Shown: positions 3,251 to 24,003 of the stretch, one piece after another
How the letters are laid out: every line of letters starts with the position of its first letter
Numbering within the stretch: the first letter of the stretch is position 1
NCBI GenBank assembly: GCA_016790425.1
Contig: JAEUPF010000108.1
Coordinates: 1-53,616 of the forward strand
DNA length: 53,616 nucleotides
DNA from: Rubrivivax sp.
GTDB lineage: Bacteria; Pseudomonadota; Gammaproteobacteria; Burkholderiales; Burkholderiaceae_C
Reading direction: 5' to 3'
Translations under genes and position numbers: made by a program
Notes under the pieces: generated by a model
Told to the model about the DNA's origin: nothing
The model's input: only the letters and a program-made list of their open reading frames with translations
Databases searched by the model: none

Positions 3251-3366
3251 TCGGCGCGGCGACCGGCGCACCGGCGGCGTGATCACCGCGCCGCGATCGA
3301 CACGCATTCACGAGGAGACCTTCGGCGGCCAGGGTTCGCGTTCCGCCGCCTCGAATTCGCAAACTC

Positions 3367-3590
3367 ACGACGGTGCAGGAGAGCGCCGCATCGGCAGGGC
3401 CACCTGCCGGCGCAGCCACCGAAGGCGCAAGCTCCCATACACGCTCAGGTTCCGTACTGCGCCGTCGTTCATTGGCCGTCTGGAGAGCCTTCGCGCGGAG
3501 CACATCCGCGCGAAGCACCGAAGGAGCAACGCCGGGCCGGCTGCGCCGTGCAGCCCCGGGCGGAATCTCTCAGGTACCGGGGACAGGGGG
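3367..3590 (+). promoter_or_regulatory. Tandem glycine riboswitch
   Basis: Two consecutive glycine aptamers lie in the leader of the dadA-like gene. Aptamer 1 is closed by ACGACGG (3367-3373) pairing with CCGTCGT (3462-3468) and contains GGAGAG (3378-3383), CACCGAAGG (3418-3425, with upstream C) and GCTCAGGTTCCGTAC (3443-3457). Aptamer 2 contains GGAGAG (3482-3487), CACCGAAGGAGCAA (about 3516-3529), AATCTCTCAGGTA (about 3564-3576) and GGACAG (about 3580-3585). These are the conserved cores of the glycine riboswitch, and the tandem arrangement is the usual cooperative form. It ends about 75 bases before the start codon at 3665. It also accounts for most of the gene-free stretch 3251-3664. The mechanism (translation or transcription) is not resolved. 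Confidence 0.9.
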
Positions 3591-3664
3591 AGCGGCACAC
3601 ACGCGCAATGGAGGCGATGCCTTCATCGCCCGCGTGCCCTCCCTCTGCTGCAAGGAACCTGACG

Positions 3665-4915
3665 ATGAAAGTGATCGTGCTCGGCGCCGGCCTGCTCGGC
3701 GTGACCTCGGCCTACTACCTGCGCCAACTCGGCCACCACGTGACGGTGGTCGACCGCCAGGCCAGCCCGGCTGCGGAAACCAGCTTCGCCAACGGTGGCC
3801 AGATCTCGGTGAGCCACGCCGAGCCGTGGGCCAACCCGAGCGCGCCGCTCAAGGTGCTGAAGTGGCTGGGCCAGGAGGATGCGCCGCTGCTCTTTCGCCT
3901 GCGCAGCGACATGCGGCAGTGGTTGTGGGGCCTGGCCTTCCTGCGCGAATGCACGCCGGCGCGGACGCGCCACAACATCGAGCAGATCGTGCGCCTGGGC
4001 ACCTACAGCCGGCAGATGCTGCGTTCGCTGCGCAGCGAGCGCGGCATCGAGTACGACCAGCGCACGCAGGGCATCCTTCACTTCTACACGAGCCAGCGGG
4101 AGTTCGACGGCGCCGAGGCGCCCGCCGCGCAGATGCGCGAGCTCGGCTGCGACCGCCGCGTGATCTCTGCCGACGAGGCGGTGCGGCTCGAGCCGGCGCT
4201 GGCGCACATCCGGCCGCAGCTGGCCGGGGCCACCTACACCGCCGAAGACGAATCGGGCGATGCCAACTGCTTCGCGCGCGAGCTGGTGGCGCGCTGCCGC
4301 GAAGACGGCGTGCAGTTCCTGATGAGCCACACGGTGACGGCGCTGCGCGAAGCCGGCGGCGCCATCGACCATGTCGAGGCCACCGACGACGAAGGCCGCT
4401 TCCAGCGCCTGCGCGCCGATGCCTATGTGCTGGCGATGGGGAGCTTGTCGCCGCTGTATGCGGCGCCGCTCGGCCTGCGGCTGCCGATCTACCCGGCCAA
4501 GGGCTATTCGGTGACGATGCCGGTGAAGGATGCGGCCAAGGCACACCAGGTGTCGCTGACCGACGACGAGTTCAAGCTGGTCTTCTCGCGGCTCGGGGAC
4601 CGGCTTCGCATCGCCGGCACCGCCGAGCTGAACGGCTACGACCGCGACCTCAACCGCGTACGCTGCGAGGCCATCGTGCGCCGCGTGGAACAGCTGTTCC
4701 CCGGTGCCGGTGACGCCAGCCAGGCGCAGTTCTGGACGGGCCTGCGGCCCGCGACGCCGAGCAACGTGCCGCTGATCGGCCGCAGCAAGCTGCCCAACCT
4801 GTTCCTCAACACCGGCCACGGCACGCTCGGCTGGACGCACTCGTGCGGTTCGGGCAAGAGCATCGCGCGCATCGTCAGCGGCCTGAAGCCGGAAGTGGAT
4901 TTCGCCTTCACCTGA
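3665..4915 (+). CDS. dadA: FAD-dependent D-amino acid dehydrogenase / glycine oxidase-like protein
   Basis: A 416-residue flavoprotein of the DadA/DAO family, which oxidatively deaminates D-amino acids (or glycine) to oxoacids, passing electrons to the membrane chain or oxygen. The FAD Rossmann motif GAGLLG is at residues 7-12, the DadA signature FANGGQIS at 41-48, and the C-terminal TGLRPATPSNVPLIGR plus NTGHGTLGWTHSCGSGK match the family. The ATG at 3665 was chosen because it starts directly before the FAD-binding strand; an in-frame upstream ATG at 3548 lies inside the riboswitch. Control by a glycine riboswitch suggests induction by glycine, so glycine, sarcosine or a related amine is a candidate substrate. 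Name by family; substrate uncertain. Confidence 0.88.
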   Translation: MKVIVLGAGLLGVTSAYYLRQLGHHVTVVDRQASPAAETSFANGGQISVSHAEPWANPSAPLKVLKWLGQEDAPLLFRLRSDMRQWLWGLAFLRECTPARTRHNIEQIVRLGTYSRQMLRSLRSERGIEYDQRTQGILHFYTSQREFDGAEAPAAQMRELGCDRRVISADEAVRLEPALAHIRPQLAGATYTAEDESGDANCFARELVARCREDGVQFLMSHTVTALREAGGAIDHVEATDDEGRFQRLRADAYVLAMGSLSPLYAAPLGLRLPIYPAKGYSVTMPVKDAAKAHQVSLTDDEFKLVFSRLGDRLRIAGTAELNGYDRDLNRVRCEAIVRRVEQLFPGAGDASQAQFWTGLRPATPSNVPLIGRSKLPNLFLNTGHGTLGWTHSCGSGKSIARIVSGLKPEVDFAFT

Positions 4916-4931
4916 TCGGGCCGCACCGGGA

Positions 4932-4961
4932 GGGCCGGGGCGGCCGGGGCGGCCGTGGCGG
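4932..4961. repeat. 9-bp tandem repeat between convergent genes
   Basis: About three copies of a CGGCCGGGG-type 9-base unit fill most of the 46 bases between the stop codons of the dadA-like gene and the VOC gene, ending directly at the VOC stop codon. Confidence 0.6.
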
Positions 4962-5345
4962 TCACCCGCCGCTGCCATAAGGCCGCGTGATGATCTCCAG
5001 GTAGTGCCCGTCCGGGTCGTTCCAGTACACGCCGCGCCCGCCGTCGTGGTGGTTGATGCGGCCCGGCTGCTGGTGCGCCGGGTCGGCCCAGTACGGCAGC
5101 GCCCGGGCCTGGATGCGTTCGAAGACGCGGTCGAACTCCTCCTCGCTGACGAGGAAGGCGTAGTGCTCGATGGTGAGGTGCTCGTCGGCGCGGAGGTAGG
5201 CCAGCGTCGCGTGGTTGTCGAGCTCGACGTCCCAGAACGGGCCGAAGCGCACCGGGGCCGGGCGGCCCAGCATCTCGGCGAGGAACGTCGCCGAAGCGAG
5301 CGGGTCGCGGGCGTGAACGATGGTGTGGTTCAGTTCGATCGACAT
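4962..5345 (-). CDS. VOC-family (glyoxalase/dioxygenase superfamily) protein
   Basis: A 127-residue single-domain vicinal-oxygen-chelate protein. It begins MSIELNHTIVHARD, has the conserved ATFLAEMLG helix, and ends with VYWNDPDGHYLEIITRPYG, where the histidine/glutamate region is typical of metal-binding VOC proteins. Such proteins serve as dioxygenases, isomerases, glyoxalases or resistance proteins; nothing here chooses among these. The start at 5345 is the natural beginning of the first beta-strand; an upstream continuation of the frame is the antisense of other genes. It is convergent with the dadA-like gene. Confidence 0.85.
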   Translation of the reverse strand: MSIELNHTIVHARDPLASATFLAEMLGRPAPVRFGPFWDVELDNHATLAYLRADEHLTIEHYAFLVSEEEFDRVFERIQARALPYWADPAHQQPGRINHHDGGRGVYWNDPDGHYLEIITRPYGSGG

Positions 5346-5561
5346 CGCGTGGGTTCTCCCGGTCAAGGGGTGCAGGGTACGCTTCCTCGACCGGCAACGG
5401 ACCCGGCGTGCAGTTGGTCCGCAAGGCCCGGCATTCGCGGGCCCCGGCTTGCGGGGGCGGCGCCTCCCGGCGGGCCTGCAAGGTGGCAAGCTTTTCGGTG
5501 ACGCCCACGCTCGAACGCGCGCGCGGGCGAAAGCTCCGAATCCACTGCTGTCCCACCCACC

Positions 5562-7199
5562 ATGAAGTCCCCTCACGCCACCTCGACCCGATCCTTCTTC
5601 TTCCGCGGCGCACTCACGGTTGTCGCCGCCGCGGCGGCGCTCACCGCCTGCGGTGGCGGCGGTTCGAGCGATCCGGCCAACGAGGCGCCCACGGTGGCCC
5701 TCGGCGCGCCCGCCGCGGGCACCACGGTGACGTGGGGCCAGCCGGTCACCCTCACGGCCACCGCCTCCGACAGCGACGGCACCATCGCCCGCGTCGAGTT
5801 CTACGACGGCACCACCAAGATCGGCGAGGACAGCACGGCGCCTTACGAGTTCACGTGGACCAACGCGCCGGCCGGCACGCGCACCGTCACCGCGCGCGCC
5901 ATCGACAACGCGGGCGGATCGACCGTCTCGGCCGAGCGCACGGTGGTGATCTCGAACACCGCCCCCACGGTCAGCCTCACCGCGCCGGCGCCTGGCGCTG
6001 CCATCTCGGCAGGCCGGTCGGTGAAGATCACGGCCACCGCCGCCGACACCGAAGGGCCCGTCGCACGCGTCGAGTTCTACGACGGCACCACCAAGCTCGG
6101 CGAGAGCACCGCGGCGCCGTACGAGTTCACCTGGGCGAACCCGCCCACGGGCACGCACACTCTCACGGTGCGCGCCATCGACGGCGCCGGCGCCGCGGCC
6201 ACTTCGGCGGCGCAGTCGCTGGCCGTCGTCGACGTCGAAGGCCCGTGGGCGAGCCTTGGCGCCGCGCTGCAAGGCGGCATCACGGCCGCGCCGAGCAAGC
6301 CGATCGAGGCCGGCGGCCTCGACGCCATCGAGGTGCTGACGACCGTGGGCACCAACGCCGTGGCGCCGGTGTGGCGTGCCGCGATGGCCCAGGCGGCCAA
6401 GAGCATGGCCACGGCGAACTTCACCCCGGCCGGCGGCTTCCTCGACTGTGCCGGCGGCGGCCGCATGATCGTGGCGCCCGGCGCCGGCACGCGCCGCCTC
6501 GTGAGCTTCGACAACTGCGTGCTCGGCGGCTTCACGTTCTACGGCGGCGTCAACGTGGCGCCGTACAGCCACACCTCGGTGACGGGCGCGACGCCGGGCA
6601 CGATCCTGATCGGCTCCACGATCAACTGGGACCCCACGGCCGACGGCTTCACGCTCACGATCGACGGCGTGCGCGTCACCGGCAACGGCGCGCCCGACGC
6701 GGGCAACGGCGACTACCCGCGCAACGCGCTCGGCGCCACCACCACCGTCACCTGCGCCGGCAGCGGTGCCAACCCGAGCTGCCTGACCACCTATGCCACG
6801 GGCAACCACTGGGGCACCGACCTCCTGTGGGACAGCTTCGCGGCCGGGCCGCTGGCCACGCCGGCCGCCGGGGCGCTGTACGCCACCGACGACGCCTATC
6901 GCGTCAACGGCACCTTCCGCGGCGGCTTCGGCGCGGGCAACGAGCGCAACATCCGCTTCGAGGACTTCACGCCCACGAGCGGCCGCGCCATCGTCTACGG
7001 CAGCAATGGCTGGTCGGTGGTCACGCGGCTGGCGCCGCTGGCGCCGGGGGTCGAACAGCTCCAGGTCAAGCGCTTCCTGACTGCGGAAGTGGTGGTGGGC
7101 GCGGTGACGTATCCGGTCGGGCCCGGTCCCACCGAGCGCTATCGTTGCGAGGTGGCCGTCAGCGGCGACTGGAACTGCACGCTGATCGTCGGGCCTTGA
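5562..7199 (+). CDS. Lipoprotein with two bacterial Ig-like repeats
   Basis: A 545-residue predicted lipoprotein: signal peptide with lipobox LTAC followed by a glycine tether (CGGGGSS). Two tandem Ig-like modules of about 95 residues follow (around residues 43-130 and 134-225), each containing RVEFYDGTTK and ending in a TVRAID-type strand. A long C-terminal region of about 310 residues, which I do not recognise, contains cysteine pairs that may form disulfides. The two modules share a perfect 30-base direct repeat (5790-5819 and 6066-6095), suggesting recent duplication or gene conversion. Probable role: outer-membrane-anchored surface or extracellular protein. No enzymatic motif was seen and no strong ribosome-binding site precedes the ATG. 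Confidence 0.75.
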   Translation: MKSPHATSTRSFFFRGALTVVAAAAALTACGGGGSSDPANEAPTVALGAPAAGTTVTWGQPVTLTATASDSDGTIARVEFYDGTTKIGEDSTAPYEFTWTNAPAGTRTVTARAIDNAGGSTVSAERTVVISNTAPTVSLTAPAPGAAISAGRSVKITATAADTEGPVARVEFYDGTTKLGESTAAPYEFTWANPPTGTHTLTVRAIDGAGAAATSAAQSLAVVDVEGPWASLGAALQGGITAAPSKPIEAGGLDAIEVLTTVGTNAVAPVWRAAMAQAAKSMATANFTPAGGFLDCAGGGRMIVAPGAGTRRLVSFDNCVLGGFTFYGGVNVAPYSHTSVTGATPGTILIGSTINWDPTADGFTLTIDGVRVTGNGAPDAGNGDYPRNALGATTTVTCAGSGANPSCLTTYATGNHWGTDLLWDSFAAGPLATPAAGALYATDDAYRVNGTFRGGFGAGNERNIRFEDFTPTSGRAIVYGSNGWSVVTRLAPLAPGVEQLQVKRFLTAEVVVGAVTYPVGPGPTERYRCEVAVSGDWNCTLIVGP

Positions 7200-13315: not shown

Positions 13316-13466
13316 GCGAGGTTCTCGGGCTGAAGAACGACCGGGCCGCAACGAGCCGCCGGGGCAGCGGCAGCGCGATTCAATATCGTCCCGCAGCGCC
13401 GCCGACTTGAGGCCCCGGCAGAATCGCCGGGGTCCGCGGCACCGCCTGCGGCGCGAGGAGGCCCCC

Positions 13467-15050
13467 TTGTACATCGGCAACCGCTGGCACCAGCACCCCG
13501 ACCGCGCCGCCTTCGTCATGGCCGGCAGCGGCGAGACGGTCACCTACGCCGAGCTCGAAGCGCGCAGCAACCGCTTCGCCCACCTGCTGCGCGCCGAGGG
13601 CCTGAAGCGGCTGGACCACTACGCCGTGTTCATGGAGAACAACAGCCGCTACCTCGAGACGAACGCCGCCGGCGAGCGCAGCGGCCTGTACTACACCTGC
13701 ATCAACAGCTTCCTCACCGCCGAGGAGCTGGCCTACATCGTCGACAACAGCGAGTCGCAGGTGCTCGTGACCTCGATCGCCAAGTGGCCGGTGGCGCGCG
13801 CCGCGCTGGCGCATTGCCCGCGCCTGCGGCTGTGCCTGGTGGTCGATGGCGGCGACGAAGTGCGGGCAGCACGAGAGGCCGGCGACATCGGCACCGCGCG
13901 CGTGGCCGACTACGCCGAAGCGGTGGCACCGTTCCCGACCACGCCGATCGCCGACGAGTGGCTGGGCGCGGCGATGCTGTACTCGTCGGGCACCACCGGG
14001 CGGCCGAAGGGCATCCTGCGGCCGCTGCCCGAGAACCCGCCGTCGCAGCCGCTGGCGCTGTTCGAGTTCCTGTTCAGGCTGTGGCAGGCCGAGGAGGGCA
14101 TGCGCTACCTCTCGCCGGCGCCGCTGTACCACTCGGCGCCGCAGGCCAACGTCGGCGTGGCACTGCGCTTCGGCGGCACGGTGGTGATCATGGAGCACTT
14201 CGAGCCCGAGGCCTACCTGGCGCTCGTCGAGCGGCACCGCATCACGCACACGCAGCTCGTGCCGACGATGTTCGCGCGCATGCTCAAGCTGCCCGAGGCG
14301 GCGCGCCGGCGCCACGACCTCCGCTCGCTGAAGATCGCCGTGCACGCCGCCGCGCCGTGCCCGGTGCCGGTGAAGGAACGCATGATCGAGTGGTGGGGGC
14401 CGATCATCCACGAGTACTACGGCGCCACCGAAGGCCTCGGGTTCACCGCCTGCGACACGCCGCAATGGCTGGCGCACCGCGGCACCGTGGGCAAGGTGCT
14501 GCTGGGCGACCTGCACGTGCTCGATGCGCAACGCCAGCCGCTGCCCAAGGGCCAGCCCGGCGAGCTGTGGTTCAAGACAGCGTCGCCGTTCACCTACTTC
14601 AACGACCCCGAGCGCACCGCCGCCACGCGCAGCGCCGACGGCACGATGACGACGGTGGGCGACGTCGGCTACCTCGACGACGACGGCTACCTCTACCTCA
14701 CCGACCGCTCGACGTTCATGATCATCAGCGGCGGCGTGAACATCTACCCGCAGGAGTGCGAGAACCTGCTCATCACGCACCCGCAGGTCGCCGACGCCGC
14801 CGTCTTCGGCGTGCCGAACGAGGACCTCGGCGAGGAGGTGAAGGCCGTGGTGCAGCCGCTGCCGGGCGTCGCCGCCGACCTCGCCTTCGAACAGGCGCTG
14901 ATCGCGTTCTGCCGCGAACACCTGGCGCCGATGAAGTGCCCCCGCTCGGTGGACTTCACCGAGCAACTGCCGCGCCTGCCTACCGGCAAGCTGTACAAGA
15001 AGGCGCTGCGCGACACGTACTGGGCAGGGCACGCGAGCCGGATCGTCTGA
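13467..15050 (+). CDS. Acyl-CoA synthetase (AMP-forming), TTG start
   Basis: A 527-residue AMP-dependent acyl-CoA ligase that activates a carboxylic acid through an acyl-adenylate. The phosphate-binding loop [12 protein letters not shown] is near residue 172, the A5 motif EYYGATEG follows, then the [19 protein letters not shown] hinge, and the C-terminal catalytic lysine is in [11 protein letters not shown]. No ATG fits the N terminus. TTG at 13467 follows a GAGGAGG-like site (13453-13460) by six bases and gives (M)[15 protein letters not shown], matching the usual start of this family. It resembles the long- or medium-chain synthetases found in Burkholderiales; the substrate cannot be assigned. 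Confidence 0.92.
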
Positions 15051-15116
15051 GGCCCGGGGCCGATTTCGAGGCGAGCGCATGGGCCGCCGCGCGGCGCCGC
15101 GCTCAATCCGCTTGTC

Positions 15117-15130
15117 TTGAGTCATGTCAA
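15117..15130. promoter_or_regulatory. FNR/CRP-type palindrome upstream of the Kor operon
   Basis: TTGAGTCATGTCAA is a dyad whose half-sites match the FNR/ANR consensus TTGAT-N4-ATCAA at eight of ten positions. It lies 197 bases before the first gene of the operon encoding oxygen-sensitive Fe-S enzymes. Seen: the symmetry and position. Inferred: control by oxygen or a related CRP-family regulator. Confidence 0.45.
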
Positions 15131-15327
15131 GCGGCCCCGCGCCGAACGGCGTAGCTTCGCAACCGGTTCGTCGCTCGGCATGAGGTTCCCTTCCACACCA
15201 AGGAGGCAGGGCACACCCGTGTAAGGGCTGCCGGCGTCGGCATGCTGCGGGGTGTGAGGGGCGCGCGAGCGACGGGGGTGCATCGCCGCAGCCTAGGGCC
15301 GGTCGTCAACCGGCAGGCGGGGCTCGC
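15131..15327 (+). promoter_or_regulatory. Leader region of the Kor operon with orphan Shine-Dalgarno and start-proximal hairpin
   Basis: The leader holds a consensus AAGGAGG (15200-15206) with no convincing coding frame after it; the first possible start, GTG at 15219, is followed at once by TAA. A hairpin with stem GCCGGT/ACCGGC (15298-15303 with 15309-15314) directly abuts the AGGCGGGG sequence that serves the ATG at 15328. This could be a leader involved in translational control, but no known riboswitch class was recognised. Confidence 0.35.
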
Positions 15328-16266
15328 ATGGGACCGCAAGGTGGCACGCAGGCGCGCTACCACATCGCCGCGCGGCAGGACTTCTCCGACGTCACGTACC
15401 TGCTGGAAGTCGAGCACCCGCTGCTGGCACGGGCCGCGCGGCCCGGCCAGTTCGTCATCGTGATGGCCGGTGAGCACGGTGAGCGCATCCCGCTGACGAT
15501 CGCCGACTTCGACCGCACGAAGGGCACCTTCACGCTCGTCATCCAGGCGGTGGGCAAGACGACGCGCTGGATGCAGCGCAACTGCCACGCCGGCGGCACG
15601 CTGTACGCGGTGGTGGGCCCGATGGGCATTCCGAGCAGCATCCCCGGCCACATCGGCAAGGCACGCAAGGTGGTGTGCGTCGGCGGCGGCCTCGGCGTCG
15701 CGCCGGTCTTTCCGCAGGCACGCGCCTGGCACGAGGCGGGCGCCCAGGTGATCGGCGTCGTCGGCTTTCGCAACCGCGACCTGATCTTCTGGCAGGACAA
15801 GTTCGCTGCCGTGTGCGACGAGCTCATCGTCTGCACGGACGACGGGTCGGCGGGGCTGCAGGGCCGCGTCACCGACGGGCTCGCGCAGGCGCTGGCGCGG
15901 CATGCCGACATCGACGAGGTGGTCGCCATCGGCCCCCCGGTGATGATGAAAGGCTGCGCCGAGGTGACGCGCGCGCGCGGCATCCGCACGGTGGTGAGCT
16001 TGAACCCGGTGATGGTCGACGGCACCGGCATGTGCGGCGGCTGCCGCGTGAAGATCGGCGAGCAAGTGAAGTTCGCCTGCGTCGACGGCCCCGACTTCGA
16101 CGGCCACCAGGTCGACTTCGACGACCTGATGGCGCGCCTCGTGCGCTTCAAGCGCGCCGAGGCCGAGGCGATGCATCGCTTCGGCGAGAGCTGCCGCCTG
16201 CAGATGGCGCCCGCGGCCGCAGCGGCTGCGCCGCCGGCGCTGGACAGCCCTTCGACCGACGCCTGA
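15328..16266 (+). CDS. FAD/NAD-binding, [2Fe-2S] ferredoxin-NAD(P) reductase subunit (NfnA/SudB-like)
   Basis: A 312-residue protein of the dihydroorotate-dehydrogenase electron-transfer subunit family, equivalent to the small subunit of Nfn transhydrogenase or sulfide dehydrogenase. The FAD-binding barrel includes ARPGQFVIVMAG (about residues 37-48), the nucleotide-binding motif is VGGGLGVAPVFPQ (118-130), and the C terminus holds DGTGMCGGCR with Asp231, Cys236, Cys239 and Cys251, the expected ligands of a [2Fe-2S] cluster. It is the first gene of a five-gene same-strand operon (gap to the next gene 61 bases). In the complex it should exchange electrons between NAD(P)H and the Fe-S chain of the next subunit. 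Confidence 0.9.
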   Translation: MGPQGGTQARYHIAARQDFSDVTYLLEVEHPLLARAARPGQFVIVMAGEHGERIPLTIADFDRTKGTFTLVIQAVGKTTRWMQRNCHAGGTLYAVVGPMGIPSSIPGHIGKARKVVCVGGGLGVAPVFPQARAWHEAGAQVIGVVGFRNRDLIFWQDKFAAVCDELIVCTDDGSAGLQGRVTDGLAQALARHADIDEVVAIGPPVMMKGCAEVTRARGIRTVVSLNPVMVDGTGMCGGCRVKIGEQVKFACVDGPDFDGHQVDFDDLMARLVRFKRAEAEAMHRFGESCRLQMAPAAAAAAPPALDSPSTDA

Positions 16267-16327
16267 CGAGCGAGCACCGCACTGCCCGTACCCGGCACAA
16301 CGGCCCGCGCCGAGGAGGAGACCGCCG

Positions 16328-17833
16328 ATGGCCAGCCCCAGGAAGAAGACGATCCGCACGATTGCGCAACAGCGCACCCCGTGCCCCGAGCAGGACGCCA
16401 AGGCGCGGGCGCGCAACTTCGATGAGGTCTCGCTCGGCTACGGTCTCGAGGAAGCGCTGCGCGAGGCCGAGCGTTGCCTGCAATGCGCCGACGAACCGTG
16501 CGTGCGCGGCTGCCCGGTGGGCATCGACATCCCGGCCTTCATCCAGAAGATCGCCGAGAAGCATCTGCACGGTGCCTACGACATCATCACCGACACCAAC
16601 CTGCTGCCTTCGGTGTGCGGCCGCGTGTGCCCGCAGGAGAACCAGTGCGAAGGCGTCTGCACGGTGGGCGACACGCTGGAGCCGGTGGCCATCGGCCGGC
16701 TCGAGCGCTTCGTCGGCGACACCGCCATCCGCGAGGGCTGGGCCAACGTGCCCTACATCGAGCCGAACGGGCTCAAGGTGGGCGTCGTCGGTGCAGGGCC
16801 CGCGGGCATGGCCTGCGCAGCCGACATGGCCAAGGCCGGCTGCGAGGTCATCGTCTACGAGGCCTTCCACCAACCGGGCGGCGTGCTGAAGTACGGCATC
16901 CCCGACTTCCGCCTGCCCAACGACGTGATCGACGCCGAGCTGCGCAAGCTCGAGGCGCTGGGCGTGCGCTTCGAGTGCAACACGCTCGTCGGGCGCCTGT
17001 TCACCATCGAGCAGATGCTCACCGAGATGGGCTTCGCCGCCGTGTTCGTCGGCACCGGCGCGGGCTACCCCAGCTTCATGGGCATCCCGGGCGAGTCGCT
17101 CAATGGCGTGCTCTCGGCCAACGAGTTGCTGACGCGCTGCAACCTGATGCGAGCGCGCGACTTCCCGAACTTCGACACGCCGCTGCAGCCGGGCAGGCAC
17201 GTCGCCGTCATCGGCGCGGGCAACACGGCGATGGATGCGCTGCGTGTCTCGCTGCGCCTGGGCGCCGAGAGCGTGCACTGCATCTACCGCCGCTCGCGCA
17301 CCGAAGCGCCGGCGCGCGTGGAGGAGATCCACCACGCCGAGCAGGAGGGCGTGGACTTCCACTGGCTGACGAGCCCGGTGGAGATCCTCGGCCATGGCGA
17401 CGGCACGGTGCGCGCGCTGCGCTGCGTGAAGATGGAGCTGGGCGAGCCCGACGCCTCGGGCCGCCGCAAGCCGGTGGTCATCGCCGGCAGCGAGTTCGAG
17501 TTCGCCTGCGACGCGGTGGTGTTCGCGATCGGCACCAACGCCAACCCGATCCTCGGGCAGACCTGCAAGCTCGGGCTCGACAAGCGCGGCTACATCGCCA
17601 CCGACGACGCGCTGCGCACCTCGATCGTCGGCGTCTGGGCCGGCGGCGACATCGTCACCGGCGCGGCCACCGTGATCCAGGCGATGGGCGCCGGCCGCCG
17701 CGCGGCGCGCTCGATGAAGGCCTGGCTCGGCCTGCGCGACAGCGACGCGGTGTACGGCGCGGCCGGGCCCGACGGCACGCTCTTCGGCATCGCGCGCGAG
17801 GAGCACGGCGCGGCGCGGCTGCGCGTGGCCTGA
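16328..17833 (+). CDS. GltD/NfnB-like NADPH oxidoreductase subunit (glutamate synthase small-subunit family)
   Basis: A 501-residue flavoprotein of the glutamate synthase beta-subunit family. Cys50, 53, 58 and 62 (CLQCADEPCVRGC) and Cys97, 101, 107 and 111 (CGRVCPQENQCEGVC) would bind two [4Fe-4S] clusters. FAD sits on GAGPAG (155-160) and the NADPH Rossmann motif is VIGAGNTAMDA. A GGAGGAG site precedes the ATG. Together with the preceding gene this is an Nfn/SudAB-type NAD(P)H:ferredoxin module. Because no GltB large subunit is present and KorAB follow, it is more likely an electron-transfer partner of the oxidoreductase than a glutamate synthase. Confidence 0.92.
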   Translation: MASPRKKTIRTIAQQRTPCPEQDAKARARNFDEVSLGYGLEEALREAERCLQCADEPCVRGCPVGIDIPAFIQKIAEKHLHGAYDIITDTNLLPSVCGRVCPQENQCEGVCTVGDTLEPVAIGRLERFVGDTAIREGWANVPYIEPNGLKVGVVGAGPAGMACAADMAKAGCEVIVYEAFHQPGGVLKYGIPDFRLPNDVIDAELRKLEALGVRFECNTLVGRLFTIEQMLTEMGFAAVFVGTGAGYPSFMGIPGESLNGVLSANELLTRCNLMRARDFPNFDTPLQPGRHVAVIGAGNTAMDALRVSLRLGAESVHCIYRRSRTEAPARVEEIHHAEQEGVDFHWLTSPVEILGHGDGTVRALRCVKMELGEPDASGRRKPVVIAGSEFEFACDAVVFAIGTNANPILGQTCKLGLDKRGYIATDDALRTSIVGVWAGGDIVTGAATVIQAMGAGRRAARSMKAWLGLRDSDAVYGAAGPDGTLFGIAREEHGAARLRVA

Positions 17834-17875
17834 GCGACATCCGGTGCGGCCCGACAACTCACAAGGACGACATCC

Positions 17876-19780
17876 ATGAGCGACTCCGTCGTGCTCGAGC
17901 GGCCGGCCAGCGCGGCCGCCGCGCCCAAACCCGTGCGCGAGCTGCCCGAGCACATCGTCGAGGTCATCAGCGATTCGGGCGAAGGCGCGCAGCGCTGCGG
18001 CCAGAGCCTGGCGGCGATCGCCGCGCGCAGCGGCAACGGCATCTGGACCGTGGAGATCATCCCCGCCGAGATCCAGCCGCCGGCGCGCAGCGTCGCCGGC
18101 GCCAGCGGCATCCGCATCCGCATCGGTGCGAAGCGCGTCACCAACGGCGGCGACCAGACCGATCTCGCGGTGGCCTTCAACGAGCAGGTGCTGCTCGGCC
18201 GCGTCAAGGCCGGTGAGCTGAAGAAGGGCGCCACGATCATCCTCGAGAACCTGTGGCGCGAGCACGCCGACGCCAAGATCGCCGCCTCCTACGCCGAGAC
18301 GGTGGCGGCGCTGCGCGAGGCGGCGTTCCACGTCATCGAGGCGCCGCTCGAGCAGGAGTGCAGGAAGCTCGTCGCCGACCCGCGGCGCGGCAAGAACATG
18401 TTCGTGCTCGGCATGCTGTGCAGCATCTACAGCCTCGACCTGGCGCTGGCGCGGGCGCAGATCGCGCTCGTCTTCGGCAAGAAGGAGAGCAAGGTCATCG
18501 CCAGCAACGTGGCGCTGATGGAGGCCGGCTTCGCCTGGGCCGAGGCGAACCTCGAGTTCAAGGTCCGCATCCCGGCGCCGAAGATCACCGAGCCGCAGGT
18601 CGTGGTGAGCGGCAACACCGCCATCGCGCTCGGCGTGCTCGCCTCGGGCATGGACATCTGCGCGATGTACCCGATCACGCCGGCCACGAGCGCCTCGCAC
18701 TACCTGAGCGAATGCTTCGAGAAGGTGGGCGGCCTCGTGCACCAGGCCGAAGACGAGATCGCCGCCTGTGCCTTCGCCATCGGCGCCAGCTACGCCGGCC
18801 GCTGCGCGGTGACCATCACCTCCGGCCCCGGCTATTCGCTCAAGCAGGAGGGCATCGGCCTGGCGGTGATGGCCGAGATCCCGCTCGTCGTCGTCAACGT
18901 GCAGCGCGGCGGCCCGAGCACCGGCCAGCCGACGAAGGTCGAGCAAGGCGACCTGCTCACCTCCATCTACGGCAGCCACGGCGACGCGCCGAAGGTCGTG
19001 ATGGCGGTGTCGGGCATCGAGGACTGCTTCCACTCGATGATCACGGCGCGCAAGATCGCCGAGACCTTCAACATGGTGGTCGTCGTGTTGTCGGACGCGA
19101 GCCTGTCGACGGCGCAGCAGCCGTTCGCGCGGCCCGTCTTCAGCGAAGACTGGCTGGCGCCGCCGATCGACCAGACGCCGGTCCCCGAGGGCGCCAAGCC
19201 CTACGACTGGGACCCGGTGACCGGCATCGCGCGCCGCTTCATCCCCGGGCAGCCGGGCGGCATGCACACCGTCACCGGCCTCGCGCACGACCGCGCGAGC
19301 AAGGTCGCCTACGACCCGGCCATCAACGAGGAAGGCCTGCGCATGCGCAGCCTGAAGCTCGCGGCGCTGCAGAAGACGCTGAGGGCGCCTCCTGTCTACG
19401 GTGCAGAAGCCGGCGAACTGCTGCTCGTCGGCTGGGGCAGCACGCAAGGCGTCATCGAAGAAGCGGTGGACCGCCTGCGCGCCAAGGGGCACGCCGTGTC
19501 GTCGCTGCACCTGCGCTTCATCCAGCCGCTGCCTTCGGGCATCCAGGCGATCCTCAAGCGCTTCCAGCGCGTGATGACGATCGAGGGCAACTGGAGCGAC
19601 CGCATCGAAGACGAGCTCATCGATGCCGAGAACCGCCGCTACGCGGCGCTGGCGATGATGCTGCGCGCGCGCTTCCTGGTCGACGTCGACTGCTGGAGCG
19701 AGGCACGCGGACAGCCGATCAAGCCGGGCAACGTGGTCGACGTGGCGCTCGCGAAGCTGGCGCAGCCGGTCGAGGCCTGA
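17876..19780 (+). CDS. korA: 2-oxoacid:acceptor oxidoreductase, fused gamma-alpha subunit
   Basis: A 634-residue fusion of the gamma domain (about residues 30-215) and the alpha domain (about 230-634) of a 2-oxoacid:ferredoxin oxidoreductase, the reversible enzyme forming acyl-CoA, CO2 and reduced ferredoxin. The alpha domain has the YPITPATSAS motif near residue 265, EDEIAACAFAIGASYAG and QRGGPSTGQPTKVEQGDL, characteristic of KorA/OorA rather than pyruvate enzymes. The N-terminal 25 residues are low-complexity. The spacing of 42 bases upstream and 31 downstream indicates one transcript. 2-Oxoglutarate is the likeliest substrate by family, but isopropylmalate-derived or aryl-pyruvate oxoacids are possible. 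Confidence 0.92.
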   Translation: MSDSVVLERPASAAAAPKPVRELPEHIVEVISDSGEGAQRCGQSLAAIAARSGNGIWTVEIIPAEIQPPARSVAGASGIRIRIGAKRVTNGGDQTDLAVAFNEQVLLGRVKAGELKKGATIILENLWREHADAKIAASYAETVAALREAAFHVIEAPLEQECRKLVADPRRGKNMFVLGMLCSIYSLDLALARAQIALVFGKKESKVIASNVALMEAGFAWAEANLEFKVRIPAPKITEPQVVVSGNTAIALGVLASGMDICAMYPITPATSASHYLSECFEKVGGLVHQAEDEIAACAFAIGASYAGRCAVTITSGPGYSLKQEGIGLAVMAEIPLVVVNVQRGGPSTGQPTKVEQGDLLTSIYGSHGDAPKVVMAVSGIEDCFHSMITARKIAETFNMVVVVLSDASLSTAQQPFARPVFSEDWLAPPIDQTPVPEGAKPYDWDPVTGIARRFIPGQPGGMHTVTGLAHDRASKVAYDPAINEEGLRMRSLKLAALQKTLRAPPVYGAEAGELLLVGWGSTQGVIEEAVDRLRAKGHAVSSLHLRFIQPLPSGIQAILKRFQRVMTIEGNWSDRIEDELIDAENRRYAALAMMLRARFLVDVDCWSEARGQPIKPGNVVDVALAKLAQPVEA

Positions 19781-19811
19781 GCAACATCGAAGGACTCTGG
19801 AGACAAGACAG

Positions 19812-20846
19812 ATGGGCTCCGCACTCCACCAATGCGTGATCCGGCTGCACGAAGAGCACCACGCGCTCGAGGACTACCAGGGCGGCGTGCCGCGCTGGTG
19901 CAGCGGCTGCGGCGACAACGCCATCCTCACCGCGGTGCAGCGGCTGTGCCGCGACGAGGACCTCGCGCCCGAGCGCACGGTGTTCGTCTCCGGCATCGGC
20001 TGCTCGAGCCGGCTGCCGCACTACATGAAGACCTACGGCTTCCACGGCATCCACGGGCGCGCGTTCCCGCTGGCGGAGGGCGTGAAGATGGCGCGGCCCG
20101 ACCTGCACGTCTTCGTCAACACCGGCGACGGCGACTGCTGCTCGATCGGCGCGGCGCACTGGATCCACGCCATCCGCTACAACATGAACCTGACGGTCAT
20201 GCTGCACGACAACCACGTGTACGGGCTGACCAAGAAGCAGGCCTCGCCCACTTCGCCCGCCGGGCTGAAGAGCAACACCACGCCGCGCGGCGCGCTGCTC
20301 GCGGCGCTCAACCCGCTGACGGTGACGCTGGGGGTGCAGAACGTCAGCTTCGTCGCGCAGGCGGTCGACTGGATGCCCGAGCAGGTCTACGACATCGTGC
20401 GCCGGGCCTTCCATCACCGCGGCTTCAGCTTCATCCGCATCATCCAGCGCTGCCCCGAGTTCCTGCCCAGGATGTTCGAGCCGTGGCTGCACGACCCGGG
20501 CAAGACGCTGCTGCTGACGCACGAGCGCGGCCTGCAGCCGAGCGCCGAGGTGAGCCGCATCTATCGCAACCAGCGGCAGCACGACCCGCTGGACATCCAC
20601 GCCGCACGCGAGATCGCGAGCAGCGAAGACCCGATCCCGGTGGGCATCCTGTTCCACGACCCGAGCGTGCCCTGCTACGAAGACCTGCGCCACGCCGGCG
20701 CGCCGCGCTCGCCCGAGCGCACGCGCGCGGGCCTGGAGGCCGAGCTCGACAAGTACACGATCTGGCCGGACGGGGACGACGCGGCCGGCGCGCAGCAGCG
20801 AGGCGATAAGGCAGCACCCCCACGCGCCGCGTTGCCGGCTGGATGA
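19812..20846 (+). CDS. korB: 2-oxoacid:acceptor oxidoreductase beta subunit
   Basis: A 344-residue TPP-binding beta subunit. Cys30 and Cys33 (WCSGCGDN), Cys64 (GIGCSS) and Cys214 (QRCPEF) occupy the positions of the four [4Fe-4S] ligands in OFOR beta subunits. The TPP/magnesium motif GDGD is at 106-109, followed by LHDNHVYGLTKKQASPTS, which shapes the TPP and oxoacid site. With KorA it forms the catalytic heterodimer that decarboxylates the oxoacid and passes electrons to ferredoxin. A C-terminal tail of about 30 low-complexity residues is extra. The next gene begins 28 bases downstream. Confidence 0.93.
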   Translation: MGSALHQCVIRLHEEHHALEDYQGGVPRWCSGCGDNAILTAVQRLCRDEDLAPERTVFVSGIGCSSRLPHYMKTYGFHGIHGRAFPLAEGVKMARPDLHVFVNTGDGDCCSIGAAHWIHAIRYNMNLTVMLHDNHVYGLTKKQASPTSPAGLKSNTTPRGALLAALNPLTVTLGVQNVSFVAQAVDWMPEQVYDIVRRAFHHRGFSFIRIIQRCPEFLPRMFEPWLHDPGKTLLLTHERGLQPSAEVSRIYRNQRQHDPLDIHAAREIASSEDPIPVGILFHDPSVPCYEDLRHAGAPRSPERTRAGLEAELDKYTIWPDGDDAAGAQQRGDKAAPPRAALPAG

Positions 20847-20874
20847 CGGGTGCAAGAGCGAGCGGAAGACGGCC

Positions 20875-23154
20875 ATGGACGCCCCCACCTCCTACCAGGA
20901 CCAGTTGCTGTTCGTGATGACCGGCCAGCGCCAGGGCGACGGCTTTGCCGACGTCGACATCGGCACGCTGTGCCCGGCCCTGCTGGCGCCGTATCGCGAC
21001 CTCGAGCGCCGGCGCCACGACTACCCGCTCGTGCTGCTCGAAGAGCCCGGGCCCGACGGCTTCACGCTGCCGCTCGCCGGCGTCGTCAGCCGGCTGGCCG
21101 CGGAGCTGGCGCCGCGCGGCATCGAAGGCGAGCGGCTGCGCCGCCATCTGCTGCGGCTGGAGCGCGAGCTGCGCGCCCTCGTCGCCGAGGGCCACGAAGG
21201 GCGGCTGGCCGACCTGTGGCCGGTTGCGCTGGAGCGCATGGCGCCCGCTGCGACGACCGCGCTGCGCCAGCTGCCGGCCGACGACGAGGCCGCCCGTGCC
21301 GTGCTGGCGCAGGCCGCGGAAACGCTCGGCGCGATGAAGCTCGACGGCGAGCTCGTGCGCTGCGACGAGCGCGTACCGGCGCGCCTGGTGACGATGGCCT
21401 GGCGCCATGCGCAGCTGGCGAAGGCGCGCGAGTTCCACCGCGTGGTCGATGCGCTGATGCGCCAGCTCTCGGACATCCGGCGCGCGGCCTGGGTGCACTC
21501 GCAGGCCGGGCAGCAGCCGCAGGCGTTGCGGCTGGCGGTGAGCGCTCGCCATGCCGAGGCCTTCGACTTCGAGGTCATGTCGCGCCTCGTCGCGCGCCGC
21601 GCCCCGGCCGACGAGCTGCCGGCCGCGAGGCGCCAGCGCATCGAATGGGCGCTGGCGGTGCTGTCGCGGCAGACGTTCTGGCCCGACGCGCGCGCCGAGG
21701 ACCCGCTGCCGCAGGCGTGCGTGTTCGACAACTGCGCCGCGGCGATGGCGGCCTTCCGCGAGCGCCTGCCCGAGGCGGTGGAGCTGCTGAAGGCGATGGC
21801 GGTGGCCGAGCTCGAGGTGGCCGGGCGCTACGTCGAGGCCGAGCACGATGCGGTGTTCCGGCGCTACGGGCTCGAGTCGCTCGGCGCCGAAGACTTCGCG
21901 CTGCTGCCCGACAGCCTGGTGTGCATCCCGCCGGCGCGCAACGACGCACGCGAGAACGCCGGCCTGCTGGAGATGCTGTCTTCGGGCATGCCGGTGAAGG
22001 TGCTGGTGCAGGTGGACGACCTGCTGCAGGAGGCCGCCTTCGGCACCGGCCACTTCGCCTTCGGCGTGCGCGCCGCGCGCCTGGCGACCACCGCGATGGG
22101 CCTGGGCGGGCGGTTCGTCATGCAGTGCGCCGTCTCGGCATTGCCGGCGCTGAAGGCGCGCGTGGTGCAGGGCATGGTTGGCCACGGGCCGGCGCTCTTC
22201 ACCGTGTTTGCCGGTTCGCCGCGGCCGGCCGCCGGCCTGCCGCGCTACCTCACTGCCGCCGCGGCGATGGAAGCGCGCGCCTTCCCTGCTTTCACCTACG
22301 ACGCGGCGGCCGGGGCCAACTGGGCCGGGCGCTTCTCGCTCGAAGGCAACCGCAATGCCGAAAGCGATTGGGCCATGGAGCCGCTCGAATATGCCGACGA
22401 GATGCTGCAGCGGGTGCGCGAGAACACGGCCTTCACCTATGCCGACTTCGCGCTCACCGACCAGCGCCACGCGGCGCACTTCGCCGCCGTGCCGCGCGAG
22501 CGCTGGCACGCGGGCATGGTGAGCGCCGGGCACTGGCTCGAGCTCGACGAGGCGGCCGCGAACCGCAGCGTGCCCTACGTGTGGGCCGCCGGGCCCGACG
22601 ACCGCCTGCACCGTGTGCTGGTGGACCTGCGCCTGATGAAGGCGGCGCGCGCCTGCCTGCTGCTGTGGCACCGCCTGCAGGAGCACGGCGGCATCCACGA
22701 CTCGCACGCCGAGCGCGCGTTGGCCCAAGAGCGGGCGAAGGTGGCGGCGGAAACTGCGAGAGCAGCGGCGGCCGTGCAGGCAGCCCCGGCATCAGTGCCC
22801 GCGCTGGCAGCGGCGGCGCAAGGCCCGCAAGCCGCAACGGCTGCCGCCGCGCCGCTTGCCGAAAAGAACGGCGCCGCGGCGATGGCGGCCGAAGCGAAGC
22901 CGCCGTCGGACGAGGCCTGGATCGAAACGATCCGCTGCCCGAGCTGCAACGAGTGCCAGCTCGTCAACCCGCGCATGTTCACCTACAACGAAAACAAGCA
23001 GGCCTACATCAAGGACATCGACGCCGGCACCTACCGCGACCTGGTGGAAGCGGCCGAGTCGTGCCAGGTGGCCATCATCCACCCGGGCAAGCCGCGCAAT
23101 GCAGAGGAGGCCGGGCTGGAGGAACTGCTGGAAAGGGCCAAGCCGTTCTTGTAG
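20875..23154 (+). CDS. Unrecognised 759-residue protein with C-terminal ferredoxin-like cysteine motif; putative KorAB partner
   Basis: I do not recognise the first 620 residues. They are soluble, alpha/beta, without signal peptide or membrane spans, and contain stretches such as MPVKVLVQVDDLL and GPALFTVFAG that look like a folded enzyme-like domain. An Ala-rich linker (about 625-680) joins them to a ferredoxin-like module: Cys688-x2-Cys691-x2-Cys694, then Cys730 in ESCQVAIIHPG, enough to bind one [4Fe-4S] cluster. The gene is last in the operon, 28 bases after korB, so it probably supplies or docks the electron carrier between KorAB and the Nfn-like pair. The large N-terminal part may be a structural or regulatory subunit. 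The functional claim is inference. Confidence 0.8.
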   Translation: MDAPTSYQDQLLFVMTGQRQGDGFADVDIGTLCPALLAPYRDLERRRHDYPLVLLEEPGPDGFTLPLAGVVSRLAAELAPRGIEGERLRRHLLRLERELRALVAEGHEGRLADLWPVALERMAPAATTALRQLPADDEAARAVLAQAAETLGAMKLDGELVRCDERVPARLVTMAWRHAQLAKAREFHRVVDALMRQLSDIRRAAWVHSQAGQQPQALRLAVSARHAEAFDFEVMSRLVARRAPADELPAARRQRIEWALAVLSRQTFWPDARAEDPLPQACVFDNCAAAMAAFRERLPEAVELLKAMAVAELEVAGRYVEAEHDAVFRRYGLESLGAEDFALLPDSLVCIPPARNDARENAGLLEMLSSGMPVKVLVQVDDLLQEAAFGTGHFAFGVRAARLATTAMGLGGRFVMQCAVSALPALKARVVQGMVGHGPALFTVFAGSPRPAAGLPRYLTAAAAMEARAFPAFTYDAAAGANWAGRFSLEGNRNAESDWAMEPLEYADEMLQRVRENTAFTYADFALTDQRHAAHFAAVPRERWHAGMVSAGHWLELDEAAANRSVPYVWAAGPDDRLHRVLVDLRLMKAARACLLLWHRLQEHGGIHDSHAERALAQERAKVAAETARAAAAVQAAPASVPALAAAAQGPQAATAAAAPLAEKNGAAAMAAEAKPPSDEAWIETIRCPSCNECQLVNPRMFTYNENKQAYIKDIDAGTYRDLVEAAESCQVAIIHPGKPRNAEEAGLEELLERAKPFL

Positions 23155-23341
23155 GGTGCGCGCGACCGGTGCCGGGCCGGGAGGGTCATTGCCGGCGATT
23201 TGCCTCGGGATGCCGGGTCACTGCGAACGGCCACAAGCGGTCGATCACGACCGGCATCTCTGGGGACTCCAATTGGGTATGCGGGGGATCGCTGCGCCGC
23301 TGTGCCGGGCACCGGCGCGGTCAATGGCGATGTTGGAGTGA

Positions 23342-23370
23342 TTGACAACATGATGATGTGTTGTTATGTT
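23342..23370 (+). promoter_or_regulatory. Sigma-70-type promoter of the toxin-antitoxin module
   Basis: A perfect -35 TTGACA (23342-23347) and a -10-like TATGTT (23365-23370) are separated by exactly 17 bases. The predicted transcription start, about 23376-23378, is at or one to three bases before the ATG at 23379, so the mRNA may be leaderless. The region is visibly less GC-rich than its surroundings. Confidence 0.65.
23345..23364. promoter_or_regulatory. Inverted repeat within the promoter, candidate antitoxin operator
   Basis: ACAACA (23345-23350) and TGTTGT (23359-23364) are perfect inverted arms separated by eight bases. They overlap the end of the -35 box and fill the spacer to the -10 box. 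A dimeric DNA-binding antitoxin bound here would block RNA polymerase, the usual autoregulation of toxin-antitoxin operons. Confidence 0.6.
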
Positions 23371-23378
23371 CTCCAGCA

Positions 23379-23675
23379 ATGAAGGCTGTGCCACTGATCC
23401 GTCGGCGTGTCGTGCTGGCGACGGACGCATTTGCCGAGGCCGTCGTGTGGCGGGTGCACGAGCCTGTGCCGCCTTCGTCGCACTTGTTCAAGTACCGGCT
23501 CGCCTATGTCGTGGGCGGGGAGTGCGTCCTGCGGTACGACAACGAGCGAGGCAAGGGCGATCATCGGCATGCCGGCGGAACGGAGAAGGTCTATGCCTTC
23601 ACGACGGCGGATCAGTTGATCGCCGATTTCGAAGCAGACGTGATGAGGTGGAATCGTGAACACGGTCGTGCTTGA
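23379..23675 (+). CDS. tumE: TumE-family (DUF6516) toxin
   Basis: A 98-residue basic protein with the hallmark of the TumE/DUF6516 toxins: LRYDNERGKGDHRHAGGTEKVYAF-like sequence with the KGDHRH core at about residues 58-63, followed by a helix of the LIADFEADVMRW type. Members are toxins of two-gene toxin-antitoxin systems; the KGDHRH residues probably form the catalytic or RNA-binding site. The ATG at 23379 was chosen over the GTG at 23358, which lies inside the promoter. Its end overlaps the antitoxin start by 20 bases. Toxin-first order and lower GC suggest acquisition by transfer. The name follows the family; activity is not shown here. Confidence 0.8.
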   Translation: MKAVPLIRRRVVLATDAFAEAVVWRVHEPVPPSSHLFKYRLAYVVGGECVLRYDNERGKGDHRHAGGTEKVYAFTTADQLIADFEADVMRWNREHGRA

Positions 23676-24003
23676 GGTTCGTTCTCTGACTCGGACGCTC
23701 GCCGATGTCGCGAATGCGATGAAGGTGGGTCGAGGCGACCGCGAGGCGCGCATTGCCTTCGCGACGCCGGAACTGCTATGGCAAGTCCTGACCGCCAAGC
23801 GGTGGGAGCTTCTCAAGGCCATGTGCGGGGCGGGTGCGATGTCAATACGCGAGGCAGCACGTCGGGTGGGCCGCGATGTCAAGGCAGTTCACGGCGATGT
23901 CACCGCACTGCTGGATGCCGGTGTCCTCAGCCGAACGCCGGAGGGGGAGATTGAGTTTCCCTTCGACGCCGTCAAGGTCGAGTTCCTTCTGCAGGCCGCA
24001 TAG
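23656..24003 (+). CDS. tumA: Winged-helix antitoxin (TumA / HVO_A0114-like DNA-binding protein)
   Basis: A 115-residue protein with a C-terminal winged helix-turn-helix: WELLKAMCGAGAMSIREAAR, then VGRDVKAVHGDVTALLDAGV and LSRTPEGEIEFPFDAVKVEF. This SIREAARRVGRDVKAVHGDV pattern is that of the HVO_A0114-type regulators encoded beside TumE toxins. It should neutralise the toxin and repress the operon through the dyad at 23345-23364. The GTG at 23656 is used because the first 50 residues match the expected N-terminal dimerisation segment; it overlaps the toxin gene by 20 bases, indicating coupled translation. Confidence 0.82.
   Translation: MNTVVLEVRSLTRTLADVANAMKVGRGDREARIAFATPELLWQVLTAKRWELLKAMCGAGAMSIREAARRVGRDVKAVHGDVTALLDAGVLSRTPEGEIEFPFDAVKVEFLLQAA

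Follow-up and report, generated by a model that had tools for sequence, protein, structure and literature searches.

What is the large protein encoded at the end of the Kor cassette on a Rubrivivax sp. contig, and what could it do there? The window, that is, the whole stretch of DNA that was analyzed, comprises 53,616 nucleotides (JAEUPF010000108.1, positions 1 to 53,616), and the protein, P0001, is the 759-residue product of an ATG-initiated open reading frame at 20875-23154 on the forward strand, the last gene in the order NfnA-NfnB-KorA-KorB-P0001, with intergenic gaps of 28-61 bp. The original prediction for this DNA had described that order, with an Nfn-like pair, KorA, and KorB ahead of the 759-residue gene, and we confirm it. 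We find strong evidence that the large part of P0001 is a degenerate copy of domains V and VI of pyruvate:ferredoxin oxidoreductase (PFOR), and we consider it probable (roughly 0.65) that P0001 is a pseudoenzyme subunit whose dead core docks KorAB and/or NfnAB and whose tethered ferredoxin carries electrons from KorB to NfnAB.

The sole Pfam match of P0001 is to Fer4_13 (PF13370; residues 685-736, E 3.4e-05, its 24.9 bits lying just above the cut-off of 24.5). Among PDB sequences its tail matched ferredoxin I (1dax, E 6.8e-04), no NCBIfam model matched up to E 1, and nothing was found for P0001 in a PHROGs look-up. The P0001 family is consequently recognized by neither Pfam nor NCBIfam outside its ferredoxin tail, and the earlier statement that some 620 residues could not be assigned is a fair one as regards family look-up; the pattern of Cys688, 691, 694, and 730 is likewise present exactly as stated.

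Relatives in genome contigs were found with an alignment as the query, and none with P0001 alone. The tblastn scan recovered 297, and counts out of 80 refer to the best 80 of these 297. Two main types were distinguished: type A proteins are ~700-760 residues long and match P0001 end to end, and type B proteins lie in open frames mostly of 1,640-1,801 residues that match P0001 from residue ~275-285 to its end. The ferredoxin cysteine pattern occurs in 80/80 relatives and the matched frame is free of stops in 79/80, with an in-frame stop in locus L150; from these frames we judge that P0001 is a real gene, neither a chance open reading frame nor a pseudogene.

The identity of the large part emerged from the type B proteins. 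All three that were scanned with Pfam (L068, L078, and L079) carry POR_N, PFOR_II, POR, and 4Fe-4S motifs, and Pfam placed a thiamine pyrophosphate (TPP) domain and a C-terminal Fer4_13 in L068 and L078, and not in L079. The PFOR model TIGR02176 also hits L068 and L079, though with scores under the curated cut-off, and L068 matches PFOR among PDB sequences at E 3e-91. These long PFOR-like proteins, which share only their second half with P0001, are complete enzymes of their own. When a profile of 16 type A proteins was aligned with one of 13 type B proteins (single-chain PFOR-like, 1,634-1,765 residues), 728 of the 735 columns aligned, onto the last 880-900 residues (E 2e-115). The N-terminal part matched the long-type profile on its own, at E 2e-12 for residues 1-280 and, under other settings, at E 5e-9 for residues 1-282. 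With hhalign, residues 1-282 scored 74.2 and residues 283-606 scored 362.6, against maxima of 20.8 and 22.4, respectively, in 30 column shuffles, and each of seven sub-blocks (scores of 48-363) exceeded all 30 of its own column-shuffled controls, the highest of which reached 30. The whole type A profile also matched five proteins of ~550 residues at E 3e-17.

The predicted structure pointed the same way. AlphaFold was run on the whole of P0001 and on residues 276-608, giving models with predicted local distance difference test scores (pLDDT) of 87.4 and 88.2, respectively, and the top Foldseek match of either model was the Moorella PFOR, at E 2.3e-4 and E 6.7e-5. All matches at E <= 0.001, 11 for the full model and 15 for residues 276-608, were PFOR or oxalate oxidoreductase, and there was none at that level among viral structures. 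The unknown N-terminal domain of the original prediction accordingly remains a gap in the family look-up and no longer a part of unknown nature: the structure search put PFOR first, and the profile match to the long PFOR-like proteins is colinear. In a tree of domain VI (33 rows; L070 was left out, as it was from the block identities given below), the P0001-type proteins form one group (100/100), on a long branch flagged as possibly falsely joined.

Although the fold is retained, the cofactor motifs of the core are gone. We mapped them on the alignment of 16 type A and 13 type B rows and on a wider alignment of 78 rows. (Alignment A2 holds P0001 and 77 of the 80 loci, leaving out L150 for its in-frame stop, L148 for an unknown residue, and L125 as a truncated gene; A3 holds 67 of those 77 loci; and A1 left out both G035 fragments and the contig-cut L102.) Both CxxCxxCxxxC motifs of domain V are missing from type A, seven of the eight cysteine columns being gaps in 16/16 rows and the eighth in 15/16. 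(The first domain-V cluster of L070 lies outside the aligned cut, hence a value of 0.92 in the motif map.) The proximal [4Fe-4S] cluster keeps one of its four cysteines, Cys163, the others being assigned at the positions that we take to be the ligands; of the 12 core cluster cysteines in the motif map it is the only one conserved in type A. Type A has other residues in place of the GGDG stretch and a deletion at the SNTGGQ loop, and its C-terminal ferredoxin retains all four cysteines, as does that of 13/13 type B rows. Across the 78 rows SNTGG is absent throughout, a CxxC occurs in the proximal-cluster stretch of one, and GDG is found anywhere in ten; inspection by eye put it at the motif position in just two, L164 and L171, where it may be a relic of an active ancestor. 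Within type B none of the eight blocks is better conserved than the TPP block (71%, 12 rows), but its identity between types A and B is only 21%. With the TPP/Mg loop and all three core clusters lost (two in domain V and the proximal one), P0001 as read from its sequence should not be able to oxidize 2-oxoacids. The proposal of a large partner fused to a ferredoxin is borne out, with the addition that the large part has no cofactor motifs of its own. The cysteines invariant in 78/78 rows are those of the ferredoxin and Cys163 (window 21361-21363), and no others, the last being invariant though its three partner cysteines are not conserved.

The second line of evidence is strict genetic linkage. 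The gene korB lies directly upstream in 76/80 loci, and the other four have just 28-221 bases of contig ahead of the match. In 53/80 the NfnA-NfnB-KorA-KorB-P0001 order is complete, and in 25 of the remaining 27 loci the sequence starts either inside the cassette or under 0.25 kb ahead of its first matched gene. In an order-level sample, in which at most two candidates were scored per genome and types were assigned by frame length and matched range, 30/399 genomes matched: 12 type A (the window genome included), 16 type B (one, G301, in an open frame of 1,190 residues), and two with short, weak matches containing stops. In a sample of nearest relatives 11/61 matched, eight with type A and three with type B, and two genomes were common to both samples, giving 18 type A genomes. 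A cognate KorA clade (at least 71% identity) occurs in 12/399 and 8/61 of these genomes, which are exactly the type A genomes, and the next KorA-like proteins are at most 43% identical. A cognate NfnB (at least 70%) is present in 18/18. End-to-end homologs are hence not found mainly outside Kor operons, and the claim that P0001 is fixed with KorA, KorB, and the Nfn-like pair stands. These gene contexts support P0001 as a putative subunit of a Kor-Nfn system.

KorAB itself is predicted from its motifs to be a working 2-oxoacid oxidoreductase, as the TPP and cluster motifs of KorB are intact. The CxxC, the third and fourth cysteines, GDGD, and YGLT are all present in the window KorB. Among its alignable relatives we found WCxGCG in 70/70 rows, SGIGCSS in 70/70, GDGD in 71/71, and QRCP in 75/75, and YGLT is present in the eight commonest variants of its stretch, which account for 65/73 rows, the other eight rows holding rarer variants. 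(A narrower motif pattern missed 31/69 rows, owing to V/I variants.) The best solved relative of KorA is the 2-oxoglutarate:ferredoxin oxidoreductase (OGOR) of Magnetococcus marinus (6n2n_A, E 3.6e-79), and that of KorB is the 2-oxoacid:ferredoxin oxidoreductase (OFOR) of Sulfolobus tokodaii (5b46_B, E 2.1e-50); both enzymes are of the same kind as the window proteins, with domains III-I-II in KorA and, in KorB, domain VI with one cluster and no domain V. Passages of PMC5020499 describe how in the S. tokodaii two-subunit OFORs the missing domain V opens a pocket beside the only [4Fe-4S] cluster, in which a ferredoxin was placed by modeling, and give the partner of the enzyme as a free dicluster ferredoxin. 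As KorAB has no domain V, the pocket by the KorB cluster would be empty here also.

That P0001 has lost its active site and kept its ferredoxin, next to a working KorAB, suggests that it is probably a tethered electron-carrying scaffold. We envisage that it descends from a single-chain PFOR-like enzyme with an extra C-terminal single-cluster ferredoxin, of which it represents the half made up of domains V and VI. The dead core, its fold retained, would serve as a docking scaffold for KorAB and/or NfnAB and so position the ferredoxin, which may accept electrons from the sole [4Fe-4S] cluster of KorB in the pocket vacated by the missing domain V. The linker at residues 643-673, where pLDDT falls below 50, is probably flexible in view of the model. 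Families of the NfnAB kind, to which the first two cassette genes belong and which are here fixed to an OFOR, shuttle electrons between ferredoxin and NAD(P). Electrons may thus pass from the 2-oxoacid through TPP, the KorB cluster, the P0001 ferredoxin, and NfnAB to NAD(P)+. Taken as a whole, the assembly would be a 2-oxoacid:NAD(P)+ oxidoreductase that carries its own ferredoxin, with 2-oxoglutarate perhaps as the substrate.

Several points weigh against this reading. Its support comes from sequence and single-chain models, and a KorAB-P0001 complex, its redox behavior, and its activity are predictions. Model-normalized TM-scores are modest (at most 0.47 for residues 276-608 and at most 0.23 for the top matches of the full model). 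Direct sequence searches of the PDB with P0001 or its profile did not find PFOR and returned only ferredoxin and one apparently unrelated protein, the THA8 RNA-binding protein 4me2 (E 0.0029 to the profile), which matched over a helical stretch and which we took as chance; the link to PFOR therefore runs through the long relatives and the fold. The N-terminal part of P0001 found no match in split PFOR subunits of 545-558 residues (E 0.65), and the domain-VI tree does not resolve the donor lineage. At two loci, L104 and L122, with 5.0 and 2.2 kb of upstream sequence, an NfnAB match is absent from that sequence. Evidence for the substrate is thin: gltA lies in the fetched flank of 5/80 loci, many flanks being short, and a match to the E1 component of 2-oxoglutarate dehydrogenase is present in 18/18 type A genomes, in 15 of them above the cut-off.

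The L104 genome (G009) carries a cognate nfnB (89%) on another contig, and at L104 itself (2752-6906, G009:C66) the gene for the 49-kDa subunit of complex I, nuoD, lies upstream of korA at the place expected for nfnAB; this arrangement is either a rearrangement or a misassembly.

The foremost alternative is that P0001 is essentially a ferredoxin for KorAB, with the dead core a folding or anchoring remnant that has no specific role. The ferredoxin is indeed the most constrained part of the protein: it is the most conserved of the eight blocks both within type A (73%) and between types A and B (41%), and in comparisons with three relatives its dN/dS is 0.12-0.29. We nonetheless regard this explanation as unlikely, because a useless stretch of some 620 residues should have eroded, and the core is long, is stop-free over the match in 79/80 relatives, has invariant residues lying outside the ferredoxin, and gives dN/dS of 0.29-0.52 for its blocks. 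For P0001 as a whole dN/dS against three relatives is 0.35-0.40, and for KorA and KorB in three comparisons it is 0.20-0.22; by these ratios P0001 is under constraint, yet is evolving faster than the KorAB enzyme. The lowest A-vs-B identity of any block, 13%, is that of residues 607-680.

It is also feasible, at quite low odds, that P0001 is a regulatory or assembly pseudo-subunit, the dead domain VI pairing with KorA or KorB to tune activity or cluster insertion, with electron carriage secondary. Residues 453-606, the block that follows the TPP block, are comparatively similar to the long enzymes (31% A vs. B), and OFOR dimer interfaces involve domain VI, according to passages of PMC5020499. 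Such an interface is hypothetical in P0001, however, and the conservation of the ferredoxin ligands in 78/78 rows argues for a redox role.

The proposal that the large domain is an oxygen shield, covering the KorB cluster so that the enzyme works in air, fares worse, and we hold it to be very improbable. In its favor, COX1-family genes are present above the cut-off in 18/18 type A genomes, which suggests that these hosts can probably respire oxygen. On the other hand, protection is not indicated by any sequence feature of P0001, and passages of PMC5020499 report that two-subunit OFORs of the KorAB type tolerate oxygen relatively well and that the Desulfovibrio africanus PFOR is protected by its C-terminal part, an additional domain, whereas the tail of P0001 is a ferredoxin. 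That P0001 has remained catalytic, using TPP at an unusual cofactor site, is scarcely credible, despite the retained fold and the GDG of L164 and L171, given that the SNTGG loop is absent from all 78 rows and a GDG at the motif position from 76, three of the four proximal-cluster cysteines are not conserved, and the adjacent KorB has the motifs.

Returning to the tethered scaffold, the substrate of KorAB is perhaps 2-oxoglutarate. At L120 (2605-10205 plus flanks) the Kor cassette lies between odhA and gltA-sdhB-sdhA-mdh, and at L107, L109, L114, and L178 it lies near gltA. The idea that Kor replaces 2-oxoglutarate dehydrogenase in the 18 type A genomes was rejected on the E1 matches noted above. 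More tentatively, at somewhat less than an even chance, we suggest that the five genes encode an OFOR of a class not described before, acting as a 2-oxoglutarate:NAD(P)+ oxidoreductase in respiring proteobacteria; in it the PFOR half would be a pseudo-symmetric partner of KorAB and the ferredoxin would swing between KorB and NfnAB, replacing domain V as the wire. The tethered scaffold could explain how hosts that have terminal oxidases as well as an ordinary 2-oxoglutarate dehydrogenase might add a ferredoxin-type oxidation of 2-oxoacids coupled to NAD(P).

Comparison with known systems sets P0001 apart from each. It is colinear over domains V and VI with single-chain PFOR (Moorella thermoacetica 6cin, D. 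africanus 1b0p) and with the long PFOR-like proteins such as L068, and with the latter the match extends to a C-terminal module that contains the four ferredoxin cysteines. Unlike PFOR, it has no domains I-III, none of the three core clusters, and no TPP loop, and it is a separate subunit beside a complete KorAB. For the two-subunit OFORs, no P0001-like chain was found among PDB sequences beyond the ferredoxin tail. OFORs with extra electron-transfer subunits are known: Helicobacter OorDABC (8ys5) and phenylglyoxylate dehydrogenase Pad have, like the P0001 system, an OFOR core with dedicated electron-transfer subunits, and the 2-oxoglutarate:NADP+ oxidoreductase of Azoarcus evansii is said to be built likewise. 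In Pad and the A. evansii enzyme coupling to NAD(P) is through a flavin subunit. None of the three is known to have a decayed PFOR half, and we found no earlier description of such a half as a subunit of another OFOR in the open-access literature, most subscription papers lying outside the search. If our reading is correct, half of an enzyme has been retained after losing its catalytic cofactors and serves as an electron-transfer scaffold for an active member of the same superfamily.

Table 1. Cassette genes and the parts of P0001, with positions in the window.
Feature	Position	Strand	Basis
NfnA-like FAD/NAD-binding protein with [2Fe-2S] motif, PRK06222 type (sulfide/dihydroorotate dehydrogenase-like)	15328-16266	+	NF004862 E 2.6e-109; PF10418 E 1.8e-12; cysteine motif seen
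NfnB-like flavoprotein with N-terminal 4Fe-4S domain (NADPH-dependent glutamate synthase small-subunit family)	16328-17833	+	PF14691 E 1.1e-42; TIGR01316 E 2.3e-175
KorA, 2-oxoacid:acceptor oxidoreductase alpha, domains III-I-II	17876-19780	+	TIGR03710 E 1.7e-150, above cut-off
KorB, intact TPP/[4Fe-4S] beta subunit, domain VI	19812-20846	+	TIGR02177 E 3.4e-71, 240.1 bits, under cut-off 261.9; motifs seen
P0001 residues 1-282, degenerate PFOR domain V and start of domain VI	20875-21720	+	hhalign to long-type profile; cluster motif gone; lone invariant Cys163
P0001 residues 283-606, degenerate TPP-binding domain VI and its C-terminal part	21721-22692	+	hhalign, Foldseek
P0001 residues 607-680, helix, then Ala/Pro-rich linker	22693-22914	+	model confidence, block identity
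P0001 residues 681-759, single-cluster [4Fe-4S] ferredoxin domain (Cys688/691/694/730), with stop codon	22915-23154	+	PF13370

Upstream of the cassette, a CoA ligase gene (13434-15050) was considered as a further member and rejected, a match to it lying beside the NfnA-P0001 cassette in only one of the 80 loci (L149), on the opposite strand and at 28%. A scan of 14900-24000 found no promoter or terminator for the cassette; it gave one promoter-like site, downstream of P0001, and one terminator-like site, on the opposite strand.

Within the genus of the window, the occurrence of type A is patchy (7/37 genomes). Among the 80 best relatives, record titles name Rubrivivax, Ideonella, Rhizobacter, Ramlibacter, Propionivibrio, and many betaproteobacterial metagenome-assembled genomes, with some titled alpha- or gammaproteobacterial and a few as other phyla, although titles of such assembled genomes are fallible. 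The cassette is also present at L116, in Ideonella sp. A 288, a record not titled as an assembly of that kind. Plasmid sequences gave two partial matches to P0001, one of them to the ferredoxin alone. In a phylum-level sample 51/398 genomes matched, with type B and with open frames of ~550 residues that match part of domain VI only. In another family of the phylum, L079 (632-8556) and L080 (3574-11504), the two examined of the eight matching genomes of their genus, encode intact single-chain PFOR-like proteins of 1,677 and 1,679 residues followed by nfnB-nfnA, which indicates that such a PFOR can pair with Nfn without KorAB. Loci L081-L085 encode separate proteins of 545-558 residues with PFOR domains V and VI that resemble the beta subunit of a split PFOR; Pfam was run on L081, and the motifs are intact in the three that were inspected (L081, L083, and L085).

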